This document shows, piece by piece, positions 10,145 through 19,074 of a stretch of 64,000 nucleotides of DNA (its first letter is position 1; every line of letters begins with the position of its first letter). The notes under the pieces were generated by a model. It was not told where the DNA came from and made no database searches. It was given only the letters and a program-made list of their open reading frames with translations. Source of the stretch: an uncultured Pseudomonadota bacterium (GTDB lineage Bacteria; Pseudomonadota; Gammaproteobacteria; Steroidobacterales; Steroidobacteraceae); contig CAIRLC010000010.1 of assembly GCA_903879335.1 (NCBI GenBank), positions 1 to 64,000 of the forward strand, read 5' to 3'. The translations under genes and the position numbers were made by a program.

Positions 10145-10176
10145 TTGCACGCCCATGTGCAAATCTGATAAATCAG
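10145..10176. promoter_or_regulatory. Paired inverted repeats upstream of TonB receptor
   Basis: Two adjacent dyads, TTGCAC-N6-GTGCAA (10145-10162) and CTGAT-AA-ATCAG (10165-10176), about 60-90 bp before the GTG of the receptor gene. Position fits an operator; the regulator is unknown. Confidence 0.35.
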
Positions 10177-10238
10177 TAGTTCGCGACGCGAATGGATCGC
10201 GTACGGCCGAAAAAAACATCACGACAGGGAGATTTTGC

Positions 10239-13049
10239 GTGACCCCATCACACACCTTGAGGCCATGGTCGCCTCGCATCGCTTGGATCGGATTGACGGT
10301 GGGTCTCTTGGCCGCAGTCGCCAGCGCTGGCGCAGACCCACAAAAAATGAGCGTGCCTAAAGATACGCTCGACGAGGTGGTGGTGACCGGTACGCTCATC
10401 CCGCAGTCGAAAGTCGAGACCGCAACGCCGGTCACCTCGATCACGGCCGATGACCTGCAGGTGCGTGGCTTCTCGACCATCGCCGATGCTTTGCAGCAGA
10501 GCGCGTTCTCCACCGGTTCAGTGCAGGGTGCGCAGTTCTCCTATGGCTTCACGCAGGGCGCGAAGACGCTCAGCATGTTCGGCCTGTCGCCAAGTTATGT
10601 TAAATACCTGATCGATGGCTTGCCGATGTCGGACTACCCGGCGCTCTACAACGGCACAGACACCTTCACGAGCATCGGCGGTATTCCGATGGCGCTCGTC
10701 GATCGCATCGACATTCTGCCTGGCGGTCAGTCCTCGCTGTATGGATCCGACGCCATTGCGGGCGTCGTGAACATTGTGCTGAAGAAGAAGGTAGACGGTT
10801 TAGAAGCCGATGCCCGCTATGGCTTTGGCGCGACCGGCGGCGGTATCTCGAAGACCTTCTCGATCGCCGACGGCTTCGACCGCGGTGGTTTGCACGTGAT
10901 GGGCGGACTTCAGTACGACAACACGCGCCCGATTTTTGGCTACCAGCGCGGCATCACCTCGAACTACAACGCTAATGGCACCACCCCACAGACGGCCGAG
11001 CGCGACTGGCTGCTCTATGGGTACTTCGGTCCGACGGGTAATTACCGCAATACCTTTTACTTTGCCGATCCGGCTAACTGCGCCAATGTCGCGTCCCAAT
11101 TCGGGGGTTCCACGGCACAGTATTCGCGTGCGAATCGCGGTTCCTATTGCGGCACCACTCGCGCAGGTTATTACTCCCTGAGCAACGGCAACGAGACCTC
11201 GCAGGGCTATCTGCGGGCCAATCTGGAGATAAACAATCACCTTGAGTTGTACAGCGATCTCTTGCTCAGCCATGACAAGGTGTACTTCGCAAATCCGGGG
11301 CAGGAGTTCAACACCTCGTGGGTGAATAGCCAGTACTCGTACTACTACGATCCGCGTTTCGACGATTTGATGAACATGCAGCGCATCTACTCGCCGGAAG
11401 AAATCGGCAGTCTTGACTCGACCTATAGCTACAACATCACCGACATGATGCGGGCGACGCTCGGTGCTAAAGGCAGTTTCGGTAGCAGCTGGCATTACGA
11501 CGTCAGCGGCACCTTTAATCAGCAGAAGCTGACGGAGAACACCTTCACGCAGCTCACGGATCCAATCCTCGCCTTTTACGCACCGATCTTTGGTCCGAAC
11601 TTGGGCCCAGATCCCTACGGCTTTGGCGTCTCAACCTTCACGCCGGACTACGCGTCGTTCTATAAGCCCATCACACCCGCGCAGTTTGCAAGCTTCAGCG
11701 GCTACTTCCATAACCATTCGAAGACCGAGAACACGCTGTTCCGCGCGCAGTTGACGAACGGTTCACTGTTCAAGCTGCCGGGCGGAGACGCCGGTATCGC
11801 GTTGGTGGCCGAGGGTGGTCGGCAGGGTTGGTCCTACGTGCCCGATGCTGGCTTTACCACCGGCCAGTTCTTCGGCTACACCTCGTCGGGCGCTTCGTAC
11901 GGCGACCGTACCCGCTCCGCGATCACGACGGAGCTGAAACTGCCGATCGTTAACATGCTGACAGTGAACGGGTCTGCGCGTTACGACAATTACAAAGTCT
12001 CCGGTGGTAGCTTCAGCAAGGCGACCTACAACCTCGGCTTTGAATTCCGCCCAACGCAATCCTTGCTGGCGCGCGCTCGGTTCGGTACGGCCTTCAAGGC
12101 GCCGACCTTGTCCGACGAATTCCAGGGCTTGAGCGGTTTCTACACCGGCGCGACCGACTATTATCTGTGCACGGTGAACGGCTACACCGGCGCGAACCTC
12201 GCCAATTGCCCGTTCCCCAACAGTTCGGTCTTCGGTCAGACCTCGGGCAATACCCAGCTGAAACCCATCAACGCCGATGTGTGGAATGCCGGTATCGTCT
12301 GGTCGCCGACTGAGCGCTTCTCGCTCGATCTCGACTACCTGCATTGGAAGATCAAAGACGAAGTGTCGCAGCAGAGCACCGATGCCTTGCTGCGTACGGA
12401 GGCGTCCTGCCGCCTCGGGCAGCTGGACATTCACTCGCCCACCTGCGTGGCGGCGCTTGCGCAAGTCACGCGTGACCCAAACACGGGACAGATCGTTCAG
12501 GTCTATACGCCGAAGGTGAACGTCTCCCAGGAGGCGGTGGATGCCTTGACGCTCACGGGTAATTACTCCGTGCGATTGGGCGCCTATGGGACTCTGCACG
12601 TCAATTTGGCGTGGACGGATATGTTGAAGCACAGCTATCAGCAGTACGCCGGCGATCCGTTCATTGATGATCTGAGCAATCCGTATTACAGCTCGGAGTT
12701 CAAGTCGAAGGTGAACGGCTCGCTCACCTGGGAGAAGGATGCGTTCAGCTCGACGGTGTACTTCACGCGTAATGGGCGCACCCCGAATAACCTGGCGGGG
12801 CTGTATGCGGATGGCTACGCCACCCCGGGCGCGGGTACCTTATCCCCGTGGACGCTCGTGAACCTGAGTGCGCGGTATCTCGTCACGCCACACCTCGAGG
12901 TTTCCGGCACGATCATCAACCTAGCCAACACGATGCCGCCTGAGGACAAGACCTACAACGGCTTGACCAATCAGCCGTACAACATCTTCAACTTCAATCC
13001 TTACGGCCGTTCCTTCCGGCTCGAAGCGAAATATTCGCTGCCGAAGTAA
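10239..13049 (+). CDS. TonB-dependent outer-membrane receptor
   Basis: 936 residues from a GTG chosen because GGGAG lies eight bases upstream and it begins a good signal peptide (hydrophobic core WIGLTVGLLAAVASAGA). The mature protein starts with a TonB-box-like DEVVVTGT, then the plug domain (TPVTSITADDLQVRGFSTIA; GGQSSLYGSDAIAGVVNIVL) and a large beta-barrel rich in aromatic residues with a LEAKYSLPK end. It imports a large or scarce ligand through the outer membrane using TonB energy. The plug type resembles the large receptor class found with sugar or peptide oligomers, but no hydrolase or inner-membrane transporter is adjacent, so the ligand is unknown. A strong terminator follows. Confidence 0.92.
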   Translation: MTPSHTLRPWSPRIAWIGLTVGLLAAVASAGADPQKMSVPKDTLDEVVVTGTLIPQSKVETATPVTSITADDLQVRGFSTIADALQQSAFSTGSVQGAQFSYGFTQGAKTLSMFGLSPSYVKYLIDGLPMSDYPALYNGTDTFTSIGGIPMALVDRIDILPGGQSSLYGSDAIAGVVNIVLKKKVDGLEADARYGFGATGGGISKTFSIADGFDRGGLHVMGGLQYDNTRPIFGYQRGITSNYNANGTTPQTAERDWLLYGYFGPTGNYRNTFYFADPANCANVASQFGGSTAQYSRANRGSYCGTTRAGYYSLSNGNETSQGYLRANLEINNHLELYSDLLLSHDKVYFANPGQEFNTSWVNSQYSYYYDPRFDDLMNMQRIYSPEEIGSLDSTYSYNITDMMRATLGAKGSFGSSWHYDVSGTFNQQKLTENTFTQLTDPILAFYAPIFGPNLGPDPYGFGVSTFTPDYASFYKPITPAQFASFSGYFHNHSKTENTLFRAQLTNGSLFKLPGGDAGIALVAEGGRQGWSYVPDAGFTTGQFFGYTSSGASYGDRTRSAITTELKLPIVNMLTVNGSARYDNYKVSGGSFSKATYNLGFEFRPTQSLLARARFGTAFKAPTLSDEFQGLSGFYTGATDYYLCTVNGYTGANLANCPFPNSSVFGQTSGNTQLKPINADVWNAGIVWSPTERFSLDLDYLHWKIKDEVSQQSTDALLRTEASCRLGQLDIHSPTCVAALAQVTRDPNTGQIVQVYTPKVNVSQEAVDALTLTGNYSVRLGAYGTLHVNLAWTDMLKHSYQQYAGDPFIDDLSNPYYSSEFKSKVNGSLTWEKDAFSSTVYFTRNGRTPNNLAGLYADGYATPGAGTLSPWTLVNLSARYLVTPHLEVSGTIINLANTMPPEDKTYNGLTNQPYNIFNFNPYGRSFRLEAKYSLPK

Positions 13050-13139: not shown

Positions 13140-14378
13140 TTAGGCCACAACCATCGGGAGCCATGCGGCGGCCACCACGATGAATAGGCCCATGCCGACC
13201 CGCATACCATAGGCGGTTCCGCCGCTGACGAATGCAGCCACGAGTTTACTGATGGCGTTGGCGGTGTACGCCAGCACAATGGGGAACCGGAGGGCGCCGA
13301 CGGGCAATTGCCCGCCGGAGCCGAGGGATAGGGATGAGGCCGCCGAGGCATGAACATCCACGGCGCCGCCGAGGAAGGCCATGACGTTCGCAGCCATCAC
13401 GCCCGAGTGTCGTAGGGCATAGGCGATCGCGCTCGAGACGATCGTTAGGACCACCGAGAATACGATCGCGTGCAGTAGATTAAATGCGTGTCCGGAGGTG
13501 ACCACGGGGACTGGTTGGTCACGTAGGCGCAACGTGCTAAGCCCTGTGACCACGACGGTCGCCAAGAGTGTGCACAGCAGGCTTGAGGCCAAGGCGGGAA
13601 GTGCTTTTGCATACACCGTCAAGACCACCGCGAACAGCAACGTGATGGTCGCGATGCAGGACGATAGCGCGCCGGCGACGTAGGTGGCGCGCGCGGCTGG
13701 TGCAAGCCGCGCCCGGGCCCCAAAAGCGGCAATCGTGGCGGTGCTGGAGACAAAACCCGCCATCAATCCCGAGAGCACCAGTCCGAAACGCAATCCCACG
13801 AGGCGCTGCGCCACGTAGCCGAGCGCCTGCAAACACAGAAACAGCACGGTCAAGGCGCATAAGCGTTGCGGGCTGGTGGACATCCACTCGCTGATCGGTT
13901 CATCCGGCAGCAGTGGAATGGCAATTAAGGCGATGGCAGCGAGCAACAAGCCATCCCGTAATTCAGTCGCCGACAGCACAAATTTCGAAAAATGGTGCAG
14001 CGGGCTGCGCGCCGCCAGAAGGATGGTCAGCAATACCGAGGTGCCCGCCGCAATGAGCGGTCGCGTGACGGAGAGGACGCCGAGAAGATACGTCGCTTGC
14101 AGCGCGAGGGCCGTCGTCACGCCGGGGTCGTCGCTGTGGCGCTTCAAGGCGGTCACCAGACCCAACCCACCCACGCAGAGCGCTGTGCTGAGGATCAGTC
14201 CCGGCACATCAAGGATGTGAGCCACGGCGCCGCTGATGGCGGCCAGCGCAAAAGTGCGGATGCCGGCGGCGAGGCGATCGGGACCCTGTCCCTTACGGCG
14301 CTCCCGCTCAAGCCCAATCAGTAGGCCGCAACCGAGCGCGGTGGCTAATCCTTGTGCCGTGTCGAGCGTCATGCTCAT
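13140..14378 (-). CDS. MgtC/SapB-DUF4010 family integral membrane protein
   Basis: 412 residues with about eleven hydrophobic segments. The N-terminal part carries the MgtC/SapB block GLLIGLERERRKGQGPDRLA, then AGIRTFALAAISGAVAH, and the C-terminal half is the DUF4010 domain (FLGGAVDVHASAASSL). Proteins of this architecture lie in the inner membrane; MgtC itself is linked to magnesium limitation and ATP synthase control, but the DUF4010 type has no defined role. It converges with the TonB receptor, sharing the 13072-13104 terminator zone, and diverges from the DoxX/bufferin cluster over 168 bp. Confidence 0.82.
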   Translation of the reverse strand: MSMTLDTAQGLATALGCGLLIGLERERRKGQGPDRLAAGIRTFALAAISGAVAHILDVPGLILSTALCVGGLGLVTALKRHSDDPGVTTALALQATYLLGVLSVTRPLIAAGTSVLLTILLAARSPLHHFSKFVLSATELRDGLLLAAIALIAIPLLPDEPISEWMSTSPQRLCALTVLFLCLQALGYVAQRLVGLRFGLVLSGLMAGFVSSTATIAAFGARARLAPAARATYVAGALSSCIATITLLFAVVLTVYAKALPALASSLLCTLLATVVVTGLSTLRLRDQPVPVVTSGHAFNLLHAIVFSVVLTIVSSAIAYALRHSGVMAANVMAFLGGAVDVHASAASSLSLGSGGQLPVGALRFPIVLAYTANAISKLVAAFVSGGTAYGMRVGMGLFIVVAAAWLPMVVA

Positions 14379-14546: not shown

Positions 14547-14999
14547 ATGAAGCTGGTTTCGCGTGTATCGCGTCTATTAGATCCGTTGTTGATTCCGCTG
14601 CAGCCGCTACTGCTGTTGGCGGGTCGTGTGTATTTGGCGAAGGTGTTCATCGCTTCCGGATGGCTGAAGCTCACCAATTGGAGCCAGACGCTGGACCTAT
14701 TCACGAGTGAGTATCATGTGCCACTCCTGCCACCGCCGGTGGCGGCCGTGGCGGGCACCTTCGGTGAGTTGGTGTTTCCGACCTTGTTGCTGCTCGGCCT
14801 GTTCAGTCGCCCTGCGGCGGTGGGTTTGTTCTTCGTCAACGCCATGGCGGTGATTTCCTACCGCGAAGTGTTGTTTTCGGAGGGCTTTGAGGCGGCGCTC
14901 GGTCAGCACGTGCTGTGGGGCGTCATCATCGCCACACTCGCGGTCTTTGGCGCTGGCGTTGTGTCGCTCGATCGCGTCGTAAACGGCAAGTCTCGTTAA
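14547..14999 (+). CDS. DoxX family membrane protein
   Basis: 150 residues from the ATG after GGGGGGAAGAG. Four membrane helices; the family block LLLAGRVYLAKVFIASGWLK at residues 20-39 and TFGELVFPTLLLLGLFSRPA near residues 73-92 are typical of DoxX/DoxD-like proteins. DoxX proteins are quinone-linked or redox-associated inner-membrane subunits and are a frequent companion of DUF2282/MNIO clusters. It lies 99 bp ahead of the bufferin precursor gene, in the same direction, so it is probably part of the same redox/metal-stress module. Confidence 0.88.
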   Translation: MKLVSRVSRLLDPLLIPLQPLLLLAGRVYLAKVFIASGWLKLTNWSQTLDLFTSEYHVPLLPPPVAAVAGTFGELVFPTLLLLGLFSRPAAVGLFFVNAMAVISYREVLFSEGFEAALGQHVLWGVIIATLAVFGAGVVSLDRVVNGKSR

Positions 15000-15098
15000 G
15001 CGCCTAGCGTTGTAGGCTTCGGCCGCTGACTTCGTTTGATCGCTTTGCTTTAACTGTTTTTTTTCGGATGATTTGATTTTTTTAAAAAGGAGTTCGTT

Positions 15099-15356
15099 AT
15101 GCAAAAGACCACCCGTACAGTGCTCGCCCTCTCGACCCTGCTGGCTGCCGGCGTTGCGTTGGCGCCAGTCGCTCAGGCGGCGGATGCGCCCACCGAGAAG
15201 TGCTACGGCGTTGCCAAGGCTGGCAAGAATGACTGCGCCGCTGCAGGTCACGCTTGCGCAGGCCAGGCTTCGGCCTCGTCCGGCAAGGAATGGATCAAGG
15301 TTCCAACCGGCACCTGCGAGCGCCTGGTCGGCGGCAGCCTGACCCCGGCGAAGTAA
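15099..15356 (+). CDS. bufA: Bufferin-type peptide precursor (DUF2282, BufA1-like)
   Basis: 85 residues: signal peptide (MQKTTRTVLALSTLLAAGVA to AQA, cleavage near residue 27) and a small mature part with four cysteines, C35, C46, C53 and C73, in the family pattern EKCYG, NDCAA, HACAG and GTCERL. DUF2282 proteins are substrates of MNIO enzymes; in the described bufferins, cysteines are turned into thiooxazole-type heterocycles in the cytosol, the peptide is exported by Sec and binds copper in the periplasm. AAGGAG precedes the ATG. The modifying enzyme starts four bases after the stop, and its partner overlaps that, forming the bufA-bufB-bufC order. The call rests on family signature plus gene order; the metal and the exact modification here are inferred. 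Confidence 0.9.
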   Translation: MQKTTRTVLALSTLLAAGVALAPVAQAADAPTEKCYGVAKAGKNDCAAAGHACAGQASASSGKEWIKVPTGTCERLVGGSLTPAK

Positions 15357-15360
15357 GGGC

Positions 15361-16233
15361 GTGCGCGGGACCTCCGCGCTGCCTTTGGGCGCGCAGGCCC
15401 TGCCGGTTCAAACCGGTATCGGCCTGCGCGCGCTTCATCACGACGATTTATTGGCAACCAAGCCGCCCATCGGATGGCTTGAGGCGCACAGCGAAAACTA
15501 CTTTCCGGCCGGTGGTTCACAACCGCAAGCGCTTGAGCGCTTGCGCGCGCATTATCCGATCGCGCTGCACGGCGTCGGCCTGTCACTGGGCTCGACCGAT
15601 CCGCTCTCATCCACTCACTTGGCGCATCTGGCGCGCATTGTGGAACGCTTTGAGCCGAGTATCGTCTCGGAACATTTGTCCTTCGGGGCTTTTGACGGCA
15701 TCCATTACAACGATCTCTTGCCCTTGCCGTATACGCGCGAGTGCGTCGCGCACCTCGTGTCACGCATCAGTGCGGTACAGGATCGTTTGCGGCGTCCTAT
15801 CCTGGTCGAGAACGCATCCTGCTATCTGCGCTATCGCGCCGATGAGATGAGCGAAGCCGAGTTTGTGAGCGCAGTGGCCCGTCAGGCGGGCTGCGGCGTC
15901 CTGTTGGACATCAACAATATTTATGTGAACGCCCGAAATCACGGCCTCGATGCGCAGGCGTACATTGAGGCCATTCCCGTCGAGCTCGTCGGTGAGATGC
16001 ACCTCGCCGGCCACACCGTGAATCGTCATGATGGGCACGACATCCTGATTGATACGCACATCGGCGCGCCGTGTGCAGCCGTGCTCGCCTTGTACGTGCG
16101 GGCGTTGCACCGGTTTTCCCAAGTGCCGACCCTATTTGAATGGGATACCGATGTTCCGGACTTGGCCACGCTGGTGGCTGAGGCCCACCGGATTGACCGG
16201 GTCCGCGAGCAGCTCGATGCCGACGCTGCGTGA
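15361..16233 (+). CDS. bufB: MNIO family (DUF692) multinuclear non-heme iron oxidase
   Basis: 290 residues, standard length. MNIO enzymes are TIM-barrel di/tri-iron oxidases that modify cysteines of ribosomally made peptides. Family blocks are visible: IGWLEAHSENYFPAGG, HGVGLSLGSTDPL, PSIVSEHLSFGAFDGIHYND, RPILVENASCYLRY, GVLLDINNIYVNA, GEMHLAGHT and LFEWDTDVPDL, which together supply the His, Glu, Asp and Asn iron ligands. Start is GTG at 15361, four bases after the bufA stop and with a short AAGG spacing, so translation is probably coupled to bufA. The next gene overlaps by 17 bases. The expected substrate is the BufA precursor immediately upstream. Confidence 0.93.
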   Translation: MRGTSALPLGAQALPVQTGIGLRALHHDDLLATKPPIGWLEAHSENYFPAGGSQPQALERLRAHYPIALHGVGLSLGSTDPLSSTHLAHLARIVERFEPSIVSEHLSFGAFDGIHYNDLLPLPYTRECVAHLVSRISAVQDRLRRPILVENASCYLRYRADEMSEAEFVSAVARQAGCGVLLDINNIYVNARNHGLDAQAYIEAIPVELVGEMHLAGHTVNRHDGHDILIDTHIGAPCAAVLALYVRALHRFSQVPTLFEWDTDVPDLATLVAEAHRIDRVREQLDADAA

Positions 16234-16987
16234 GTTGCAGGCCGCGTTCGCGCGCGCACTCCACGGCGATGCGTCGGGGGCTGAAGCCTGGGTCGAGGCG
16301 GGCGGCTTTGCGCCCGAGCGCCGGCTCGGCATCTACCGGCATAATGTGGATGCGATTGCGGCGGGCTATTTACGCGCCGCCTTTCCAGCGGTCACTCGCT
16401 TGGGCGGTGGCGATTACCTGGAAGGTTTGGCGCGCGACTATCGACTCGCGCACCCGTCCCGGAGCGGTAATCTGCACGATTTTGGCGCGGGCTTTGCCGA
16501 TTTTTTAGCCGCGCAACTCCGCGAGACGCCGTATGACTTCATCGCTGACGTGGCTCATTTGGAGTGGGCTTATCAGGATGTGCTGGTGGCCGCGAGCGCA
16601 CGCAACTTCGACCTAGAGGCGTTTTTAGCGATTCCTCCGGAGGCGCATGAGACGCTCGTGTTTAACCTAGCGCCCTCAGTCCGTCGCGTGGCGTCGCGAT
16701 ACCCGATCTATGCGCTGTGGGCGGCTAACCGGGCAGAGGATGCTGAGGGCACACCGATCGACTTGCAGGCGGGTGGTGATTGTCTGCTGCTCTATCGAGG
16801 GGCCGGTGGTGCACAGGTGATCGAGCTGGATGCGCCCACTGACGCGTTTGTGGGTGCCTTGTTGCAACGGGCATCGCTCGGTCAGGCCATGGCCGCGCTC
16901 GAGGCGGTGGACCCGCAGCGAGATCCGGCCGCCGTGCTTTTTGAGTTGATCCAGTCAGGTCGCATTGACGGATTTGAGCCCGCTTGA
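16217..16987 (+). CDS. bufC: DUF2063 partner protein of MNIO (BufC-like)
   Basis: 256 residues from the ATG inside the end of bufB (17-base overlap). The N-terminal half is the DUF2063 domain (LRELQAAFARALHG; RLGIYRHNVDAIAAGYLRAA; FPAVTRLGGGDYLEGLARDY), the C-terminal half a small mixed domain (LAPSVRRVASRYPIYALWAA). In MNIO systems this protein acts as recognition partner that presents the precursor peptide to the oxidase. The position and overlap support joint action with bufB. No membrane segment or signal peptide, consistent with cytosolic modification before export. Confidence 0.9.
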   Translation: MPTLRELQAAFARALHGDASGAEAWVEAGGFAPERRLGIYRHNVDAIAAGYLRAAFPAVTRLGGGDYLEGLARDYRLAHPSRSGNLHDFGAGFADFLAAQLRETPYDFIADVAHLEWAYQDVLVAASARNFDLEAFLAIPPEAHETLVFNLAPSVRRVASRYPIYALWAANRAEDAEGTPIDLQAGGDCLLLYRGAGGAQVIELDAPTDAFVGALLQRASLGQAMAALEAVDPQRDPAAVLFELIQSGRIDGFEPA

Positions 16988-17071: not shown

Positions 17072-18100
17072 ATGGCCGCGATGACCACCCTGTTTGAAGC
17101 CCCCTTTGTCGTCTTCATGGGCGATGTGACCGATCCGGTCTACGGCAAGACGGGTTTAGGGCTCGTGCAATGGCGGGCGAGCGATTGTTTAGGGCAGATT
17201 CGCTTGCCGGGTTGCGGTGTGGATACGGGTGTTCCTGAGTTGGATATCCCAATGGCTCAATCGCTCGGCGCCCGTACGTTGATTGTGGGCTCCGCTGCGG
17301 TCGGTGGCCGCATGCCGGATCATTGGGTGGAGTCCCTGTGCCACGCTGCACGCTTAGGCCTCGACATTGTCGCCGGCCTGCATATTCCGCTCTCGATCTT
17401 ACCTGGACTGACCGCCGCCGCGACCGCCGGTCGGGCGCGCCTGATTGATGTGCGCGTGCCGCCTGCCGGTATCCCGGTGGGGTCAGGCGCGAAGCGTAGT
17501 GGGCGCCGCGTGCTGATGGTGGGGACTGATTGCGCCTCGGGCAAAAAATACACGGCCCTCGCGTTGGCGCGTGACTTGAACGCTGCGGGTGTGGCCGCCG
17601 ATTTTCGCGCGACCGGTCAGACGGGCATCATGATCGCCGGCGCCGGCATGCCGATCGATGCCGTGGTGGCCGACTTTCTCACCGGCGCGGCCGAAGTCCT
17701 TTCGCCGGACAATAGCCCCGACCATTGGGACGTCATTGAGGGCCAAGGGGGCGTATTTCACCCCGGCTATCTGCCGGTGACGATCGGTTTGTTAGTGGGT
17801 TCGCAACCGGACGCCTTTGTGGTCTGTCATGACCCCTTGCGCCGCCACGTGTCCGGTTGGCCGGATTACCCTTTGCCGAGTGTGACGGCGGTGATTGAGC
17901 GCACGGTCCTCTTGGGAAGCCTCACGAATCCTGCGATTCGCTGTGTGGGCGTCGCCTTAAACACATCGCGCGTGCCCGCCAGTGAGCGGCTTGCGCTGAA
18001 GGCCCGCTACGCGGAGGAGACCGGCTTGCCCTGCGTTGATCCGATCTTGGACGGCACAGGCCTGATCGTCGATCAGTTGCGCCGCGAGTTTGGTGCATGA
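17072..18100 (+). CDS. dgcN: DUF1611 family protein, DgcN-like N-acyltransferase
   Basis: 342 residues from ATG 17072 (GAAGG 11 bases upstream; TTG 17039 and ATG 17081 are alternatives). The C-terminal half has a P-loop-like motif GTDCASGKKYTALALARDL near residues 163-181 and the DUF1611 blocks RATGQTGIMIAGAGMPIDAV and WDVIEGQGGVFHPGY. DgcN proteins N-acetylate D-glutamate so that the partner DgcA can racemise it, allowing growth on D-amino acids. The next gene, an enolase-superfamily epimerase, overlaps by four bases, reproducing the dgcN-dgcA pair. It follows the bufferin cluster after 84 bp. Family is firm; D-glutamate as substrate is taken from described homologues. Confidence 0.8.
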   Translation: MAAMTTLFEAPFVVFMGDVTDPVYGKTGLGLVQWRASDCLGQIRLPGCGVDTGVPELDIPMAQSLGARTLIVGSAAVGGRMPDHWVESLCHAARLGLDIVAGLHIPLSILPGLTAAATAGRARLIDVRVPPAGIPVGSGAKRSGRRVLMVGTDCASGKKYTALALARDLNAAGVAADFRATGQTGIMIAGAGMPIDAVVADFLTGAAEVLSPDNSPDHWDVIEGQGGVFHPGYLPVTIGLLVGSQPDAFVVCHDPLRRHVSGWPDYPLPSVTAVIERTVLLGSLTNPAIRCVGVALNTSRVPASERLALKARYAEETGLPCVDPILDGTGLIVDQLRREFGA

Positions 18101-19074
18101 AGCTCTCGGTACACGCCGAGCGCTGGCCCACCGCGCGGCCGTTCCGGATCGCCGGCCGCGAGTGGCTCAGCTTTGATTCCGTGGTTGTGGAGCTCGAGGC
18201 GGACGGGGTGGTGGGGCGTGGTGAAGCGCTCGGGGTGTTTTATCTCGGCGACGAGGTCGAGCAGATGCTGCACACCATCGAGTCTGCGGCGCCGGTCATT
18301 GAGGCCGGCGTAGGCCATGAAGAGTTAGAGGCGCTGCTGCCACCGGGCGGTGCCCGTAACGCCTTGGATCTCGCGCTCTGGGATTTAGAAGCCAAGCGCA
18401 GTGGCCGCAGCATCTGGTCCTTGACAGGCATTACGCCTAAGCGACTTGAAACCGTCTACACCATCAGCCTCGATCCTGAGCCTGCACAGATGGCGGCACA
18501 TGCAGCCTCTGCATCAGCCCATCACCTCTTAAAAATTAAGTTGGGCGCCGACCGACCCTTGGAGCGTCTACAAGCGATTCGTCACGCGAGACCGGATGCC
18601 CGTCTCGTCGTGGACGCGAACCAAGCGTGGAGTTTTGAGCAATTGCAGTCTGTTGCTCCGGGATGTGCGGCGCTGGGTATCGAGATGATTGAGCAGCCCT
18701 TAACGCGCGGCGCGGATGCGTGCCTCGACCACTACCAGTCGCCGGTGCCGCTGGGCGCCGATGAGTCCTGCCTGCATCTGGGTGACTTGGATGCGATTGC
18801 GGGACGCTACCAGATGCTGAACATCAAACTGGATAAGGCCGGAGGCCTCACGCATGGCCTTAAGTTGGCGCGCGCAGCCCGCGAGCGCGGACTTGCGCTG
18901 ATGGTGGGCTGTATGGGTGGCTCGTCGTTGTCCATCGCGCCGGCCTTTGTGCTCGGCTGTGTGGTCGACCTCGTCGATATCGACGGCCCGTTGTTGTTAC
19001 GGCGCGATCGAGTGCCGGGTATGCGCTACGAGCATGGCTTTGTGGATCCGCCAACGTCGAGCGTCTGGGGATAA
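18097..19074 (+). CDS. dgcA: Enolase-superfamily dipeptide/N-acyl-glutamate epimerase, DgcA-like
   Basis: 325 residues. Muconate-lactonising subgroup: acid/base lysines in LLKIKLG (K146/K148) and NIKLDK (K244), and metal ligands D173 (VVDANQAW), E199 (EMIEQPL) and D222 (GADES). The family includes L-Ala-D/L-Glu epimerase used in murein peptide recycling and DgcA, which racemises N-acetyl-D-glutamate. Pairing with a DUF1611 gene through an ATGA overlap favours the DgcA role. Cytosolic. A strong bidirectional hairpin follows at 19103-19133. Confidence 0.85.
   Translation: MKLSVHAERWPTARPFRIAGREWLSFDSVVVELEADGVVGRGEALGVFYLGDEVEQMLHTIESAAPVIEAGVGHEELEALLPPGGARNALDLALWDLEAKRSGRSIWSLTGITPKRLETVYTISLDPEPAQMAAHAASASAHHLLKIKLGADRPLERLQAIRHARPDARLVVDANQAWSFEQLQSVAPGCAALGIEMIEQPLTRGADACLDHYQSPVPLGADESCLHLGDLDAIAGRYQMLNIKLDKAGGLTHGLKLARAARERGLALMVGCMGGSSLSIAPAFVLGCVVDLVDIDGPLLLRRDRVPGMRYEHGFVDPPTSSVWG

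Follow-up and report, generated by a model that had tools for sequence, protein, structure and literature searches.

The window, a stretch of 64,000 nucleotides (nt) from an uncultured bacterium of the Steroidobacteraceae (contig CAIRLC010000010.1), carries at positions 14547-16987 the operon doxX-bufA-bufB-bufC, which is almost certainly a Buf1 bufferin operon, i.e., a cluster for a metal-buffering ribosomally synthesized and post-translationally modified peptide (RiPP). The bufABC part is in itself nothing new, being a further example of a cluster type already in print. The features that stand out are the place of doxX ahead of bufA and the cluster-type signature of the DoxX protein, for which an action together with the finished bufferin is tentatively preferred.

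All four genes lie on the + strand, and each match exceeds the gathering score of its Pfam family (Table 1). A sequence-only reading of this DNA had named the same set, a DoxX, a DUF2282 precursor with four Cys (BufA), a multinuclear non-haem iron oxidase (MNIO; BufB) and its DUF2063 partner (BufC), and its placement among BufA-BufB-BufC metal-buffering clusters with an accessory DoxX is borne out by family membership and by the literature (PMC12452194, PMC12668002, PMC13419390). The tight overlap that it described holds for bufB and bufC (17 nt), whereas bufA and bufB are spaced by 4 nt. As the same four-gene set recurs across many Pseudomonadota loci, the cluster is not a chance assembly. 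In the window genome (46 contigs, 96.8% complete), one MNIO gene, one DUF2282 gene, and one DoxX gene were detected, all at these positions.

BufA keeps its four Cys at the places first read (C35, C46, C53, and C73), and each of the 80 aligned precursors has Cys in these four columns, a test that is partly circular because these were picked for 4 or 5 Cys from 110 distinct sequences. By inspection, its N-terminus combines K/R, a hydrophobic core, and AQA followed by AD, resembling a Sec signal at residues of about 1-27. BufB reaches 349.9 bits with NCBIfam MNIO_BufB (cut-off 310), and E41, H70, H105, E150, D183, N186, H214, D231, H233, and E260, ten positions characteristic of MNIO enzymes, are identical in 116 of 116 aligned sequences. 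Which of these residues serve as iron ligands is presumed from homology. BufB also matches PDB 3bww (E 9.4e-42), and its tree places the window protein and those of the relatives G007 and G010 within the Buf1 maturases and separates them from the Buf2-type maturases of their genus. Two other assignments were rejected. As a Buf2 precursor (NCBIfam BufA2; 6 or 12 Cys), BufA has the wrong number of Cys and a weak score (33.4/60 bits), and no NCBIfam model other than BufA2 matched it at E <=0.001. As an Hvf/EGKCG cluster, the operon lacks the EGKCG repeat and stays under the NCBIfam cut-offs (HvfB 241/360, HvfC 48.1/142, HvfX 45.1/80 bits), the last of which also dismisses DoxX as an HvfX equivalog.

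In the 2025 survey of MNIO clusters (PMC12452194), Buf1 is defined by DUF2282, and the bufferin cluster core comprises precursor, MNIO, DUF2063, and DoxX genes. Caulobacter CC3254-CC3257, a Buf1 cluster (PMC3511200, PMC12452194), shares with the window the four families, including the four-Cys precursor, the MNIO with its DUF2063 partner, and DoxX. Its order is bufA-bufB-bufC-doxX beside sigF and nrsF, whereas in the window doxX comes first, and a regulator search covering NrsF and the genes adjoining the operon detected no NrsF in the genome. The gigPABT operon of Cupriavidus metallidurans and its Legionella counterpart (PMC10304878, PMC5413113) correspond gene by gene, with GigP as DUF2282 (the family listed for the Legionella counterpart in PMC5413113), GigA as MNIO (DUF692), GigB as DUF2063, and GigT as DoxX. 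The gig genes take their name from induction by gold, and gigPABT has doxX in last place, whereas the window operon has it first. The Hvf/captophorin (EGKCG) clusters with HvfA, HvfB, HvfC, and HvfX (PMC13419390, PMC12668002) have in common the MNIO, a DUF2063-type partner, a DoxX-like protein, and thiooxazole chemistry, but their precursor is built on EGKCG repeats.

By homology with the studied systems, BufC, a partner with a recognition domain, would present the unexported BufA precursor to BufB, which would act as the iron oxidase converting C46 and C53 into thiooxazoles, with C35 and C73 pairing in a disulfide. The modified BufA would then be exported via Sec and buffer copper in the periplasm.

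The window DoxX has no Cys. Linked DoxX proteins were aligned (A1) for 44 of a list of 52, eight being omitted as near-copies or shorter; the list excluded linked DoxX with a precursor >900 nt from bufB, including four without His121. R27, F34, G38, K41, F52, A67, E74, G84, H121, W124, and G135 are invariant in all 44 rows. R27, G38, K41, E74, and G84 are common to DoxX in general, and the bufferin-type signature consists of W45, T48, E55-Y56, Y105, H121, and W124. Judging from these alignments, the DoxX proteins of Buf1 and Buf2 clusters form a shared type. When all 63 distinct linked DoxX are considered, 59 carry His121 and 62 carry Trp124. Among other DoxX, including neighbours of MNIO genes whose precursor is unrecognised by the BufA profile, His121 occurs in 0/33 rows and Trp124 in 1/33; two of these rows (L010 and L145) represent a single gene, and distant rows are aligned with uncertainty in the stretch from helix 3 to helix 4. 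In a class-wide sample picked with the A1 profile, which makes the counts partly circular, His121 is found in 45/47 and Trp124 in 47/47 (42/44 and 44/44 in the subset outside A1). No conserved Cys column exists among linked DoxX, and 22 of 47 class-sample proteins are devoid of any Cys; a DsbB-like thiol oxidase working with its own cysteines was rejected on this ground. Hydropathy and charge suggest four helices with both termini inside and the type-specific residues at the periplasmic side. No solved relative of the DoxX profile was found at E <=1.

The linkage of DoxX was counted after exclusion of same-contig repeats, 30 short loci (L134-L163), and identical BufB, which left 119 rows, 104 of them with full flanks. 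DoxX was regarded as linked within -1.5 to +2.6 kb of bufB. It is so in 44 of 61 Buf1 loci with full flanks against 5 of 25 Buf2 loci (Fisher p 1.2e-5, indicative only because the rows are related). In 42 of the Buf1 loci, DoxX follows bufC, and in two, namely the window and G007, it stands upstream, with none in reach in the others; in the Buf2-like loci, it lies upstream in 5 and is absent in 20. The 18 loci lacking a recognised adjacent precursor have it downstream (5), upstream (6), or not at all (7). Five of these six upstream loci (L069, L075, L077, L081, L109) follow the order A-X-B-C (X for doxX) with the precursor further upstream, and L076 follows X-B-C with a DoxX of another type. 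The X-A-B-C order of the window was seen only in its genus, where it occurs in 7 of 14 genomes that gave an MNIO match, and is absent among the 48 loci of the class sample.

Within this genus, the Buf2-like clusters L113, L117, L119, L121, and L123 display the same doxX-bufA-bufB-bufC order as the window. In the DoxX tree, where the window protein groups with that of G007, the DoxX of these five operons fall with it into one starred set of 13 rows (97/92); repeats and DoxX domains of <= about 90 amino acids (aa) were excluded from this tree, which has few columns and many weak forks. These clusters differ from the window in that their BufB does not belong to the Buf1 group and their precursor is of a CKG type with 6 Cys. 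Either one kind of operon acquired doxX from the other or bufABC was exchanged beside doxX, and in both cases DoxX would not be bound to one precursor type.

Gene chains that lack one of the partners bear on the role of DoxX. In 229 genomes of the class, 48 bufferin-type DoxX were detected beyond the window genome, and about 5 kb was viewed on either side as far as the contig extended. Their chains include bufA, bufB, and bufC in 34 cases, bufA only in five (L205, L207, L214, L229, L230), and bufA with bufC in one; six DoxX are alone, one stands with a second DoxX, and one was not redetected. A DoxX with bufB or bufC but without bufA was found in none of the 48. Further bufA-doxX units with no bufBC in the chain are L168, L250 (on a contig shared with L071), L251, L061, and L068. 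At the genome level, G275 (L207; 100% complete) and G095 (L242; 94% complete) possess bufA and doxX, separated by two genes in G095, and neither MNIO nor DUF2063 was found in them. Conversely, G005 and G025 (97% and 98% complete) possess MNIO and DUF2063 but yielded no DoxX of whatever type; G010 yielded only distant, signature-less DoxX. Precursors are reported to occur rarely without MNIO, and the accessible text of the same survey (PMC12452194) makes no statement that DoxX stays with them.

Both genomes without a detected maturase show a further arrangement, in which bufA and doxX are accompanied by genes for a GMC oxidoreductase and for a protein resembling gluconate 2-dehydrogenase subunit 3 (L207 2228-5832 in G275; L242 2412-5433 in G095), L207 additionally including a DsbH-like thioredoxin. 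The GMC protein is widespread, occurring in 35 of 369 genomes. As a general replacement of the MNIO it was rejected, since among the 30 loci returned, bufA or doxX lies within about 1.5 kb in G275 and G095 only; it remains a lead, and a literature search returned no paper naming DUF2282 together with a GMC oxidoreductase. In L168 (1545-3203; G033), the bufA-doxX pair adjoins an oppositely oriented gene resembling an extracytoplasmic function sigma factor and a second small frame resembling an anti-sigma factor, both labels resulting from reading and not from Pfam. L061, L068, and L071/L250 are composites that combine, within about 6 kb, a Buf1 bufABC, a Buf2-like bufABC in convergent orientation, and a separate unit of bufA and doxX, the bufA of the Buf1 set being cut off in L068.

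Since bufA-doxX exists without bufBC and bufABC without DoxX, DoxX is likelier to serve the finished bufferin than its modification. It would be a four-helix inner-membrane protein acting after BufA maturation, contacting the bufferin at the periplasmic face through E55-Y56, Y105, H121, and W124, and most probably acting on the copper that the bufferin carries or on its redox state, with the quinone pool as a possible counterpart. This topology, the contact, the electron path, and the metal are all predictions, and the post-maturation role, although preferred over an independent stress role and over a modification role, is given slightly less than an even chance. HvfX, the DoxX-like product of the hvf operon, is called uncharacterised in a 2026 study (PMC13419390); an additional Cu-binding role was suggested in PMC12668002.

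Several observations weigh against a post-maturation role. Of the 61 Buf1 loci, 17 have no linked DoxX, so that DoxX cannot be essential, and in the class sample 6 of 48 have no chain partner; one of these six borders a contig end, another is 1.2 kb away from such an end, and a third has bufA two genes away. Among the five A-only units, L229 and L230 come from one genus, these two and L214 have an MNIO within about 5 kb, and L205 lies <300 nt from a contig end in a genome with an MNIO on another contig. G275 and G095 are the only two genomes with bufA and doxX in which no maturase was found. Furthermore, His121 is replaced by Asn, Thr, or Ser in four A-X-B-C loci outside A1 (L075, L077, L081, L109, the last also without Trp124) that adjoin Buf1-type maturases, and is thus not required everywhere. 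Finally, the periplasmic grouping of the residues is suggested by hydropathy and the positive-inside rule. In its most specific form, DoxX would be the dedicated membrane partner of the bufferin, taking copper or electrons from BufA to the quinone pool through a periplasmic site made of His121, Trp124, Tyr105, and Glu55, and working with unmodified BufA as well, which would make bufA-doxX an MNIO-free metal or redox module in G275 and G095. This version is rather unlikely. The His121 exceptions leave the chance given above to the post-maturation role unchanged because it had already been set low.

Alternatively, DoxX may be a general stress protein co-regulated with the bufferin and making no contact with it, which is possible but doubtful. 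In a different setting, a DoxX homologue confers protection from oxidative or sulphur stress, and a role in guarding against other stresses has been suggested (PMC12452194). The frequent absence of DoxX and its lone copies fit such a role, as does the closeness of the DoxX of the Buf1 and Buf2 operons of the genus, whose BufB are not close. However, a nearly invariant, cluster-specific residue set and the persistence of DoxX beside bufA where no maturase was found both suggest a specific partner.

The sequence-only reading had considered a redox function of DoxX tied to cysteine modification or metal binding, the first of which would place DoxX in maturation. As a membrane redox protein, DoxX would supply electrons or oxidising power to BufBC or prepare the Cys thiols; most Buf1 loci do have doxX and bufBC in one gene chain, and a Cu(I)-oxidising, quinone-linked role was suggested for GigT (PMC10304878). 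This tie is nevertheless improbable, as DoxX has no conserved Cys, bufABC occurs in two genomes without a detected DoxX, bufA-doxX occurs without bufBC, and in vitro activity is reported for homologous BC pairs, in the reconstitution of fontiphorin (PMC12668002) and for HvfBC (PMC13419390). A metal role or a redox role of DoxX is possible, the latter not via conserved thiols of its own.

Concerning the metal, homology makes copper probable. Gold, zinc, mercury, or chromate in its place would be a poor bet. In favour of another metal, the Legionella gig operon reacts to gold as well as to copper (PMC5413113), chromate acts on the Caulobacter homologues via SigF (PMC3511200), MerC-bufferin fusions exist (PMC12452194), and the related Microbulbifer mmr peptide binds Cu(I), yet the mmr genes are not expressed in response to copper (PMC12538549). 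Against it, the thiooxazole peptides with described binding bind copper and bufferins are reported to aid growth under copper stress (PMC12452194).

The operon and its surroundings are listed in Table 1. The MgtC/DUF4010 gene is probably outside the bufferin system; in L118 (G007), the closest relative bearing doxX, a 53% identical neighbour is likewise divergent from doxX. The relative G010 (L120, BufB 79% identical) carries bufABC without doxX, flanked by galU-like and M1-peptidase-like genes (labels from reading of the sequences, not from Pfam) whose window counterparts are separated from the operon by 5 kb on its upstream side and by 2 kb on its downstream side. Neither a sigma-70-like nor a SigF-like promoter was found on the + strand of the doxX-bufA gap; the single sigma-70-like site is on the - strand, towards the MgtC gene, with 0.6 expected by chance. 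For the SigF-type consensus GTAACC-N16-CGAA (PMC3511200), 14380-15110 holds no + strand match at <=2 mismatches with spacers of 15-17, and five with three mismatches. The window operon thus lacks the marks of a SigF/NrsF-controlled bufferin operon.

Table 1. Genes and intervals of the bufferin operon and of its surroundings in the window (aa, amino acids).
Feature	Position	Strand	Remarks
TonB-dependent receptor gene	10155-13049		Upstream of the operon
MgtC + DUF4010 domain gene	13140-14378	-	412 aa; divergent from doxX; Pfam
doxX	14547-14999	+	150 aa; ATG after AGGGGGG; Pfam DoxX 62.6 bits
doxX-bufA gap	15000-15098	+	99 nt, T-rich; AAAAAGGAG ribosome-binding-like site ahead of bufA
bufA	15099-15356	+	85 aa; Pfam DUF2282 74.3 bits
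bufB	15361-16233	+	290 aa; start assumed GTG; Pfam MbnB_TglH_ChrH 332.9 bits
bufC	16217-16987	+	256 aa; ATG at 16217; Pfam DUF2063 (PME type 1) 68.7 bits
dgcN- and dgcA-like pair	17072-19074		Downstream of the operon; NCBIfam 423/480 and 391/400 bits, both below cut-off

The loci with bufABC and no doxX, and those with bufA-doxX and no bufBC, constitute natural controls for the role of DoxX. This comparison makes the role directly testable, through named residues, a predicted periplasmic site, and a predicted partner that is BufA and not BufBC, in a young and widespread class of RiPPs, the thiooxazole copper buffers.

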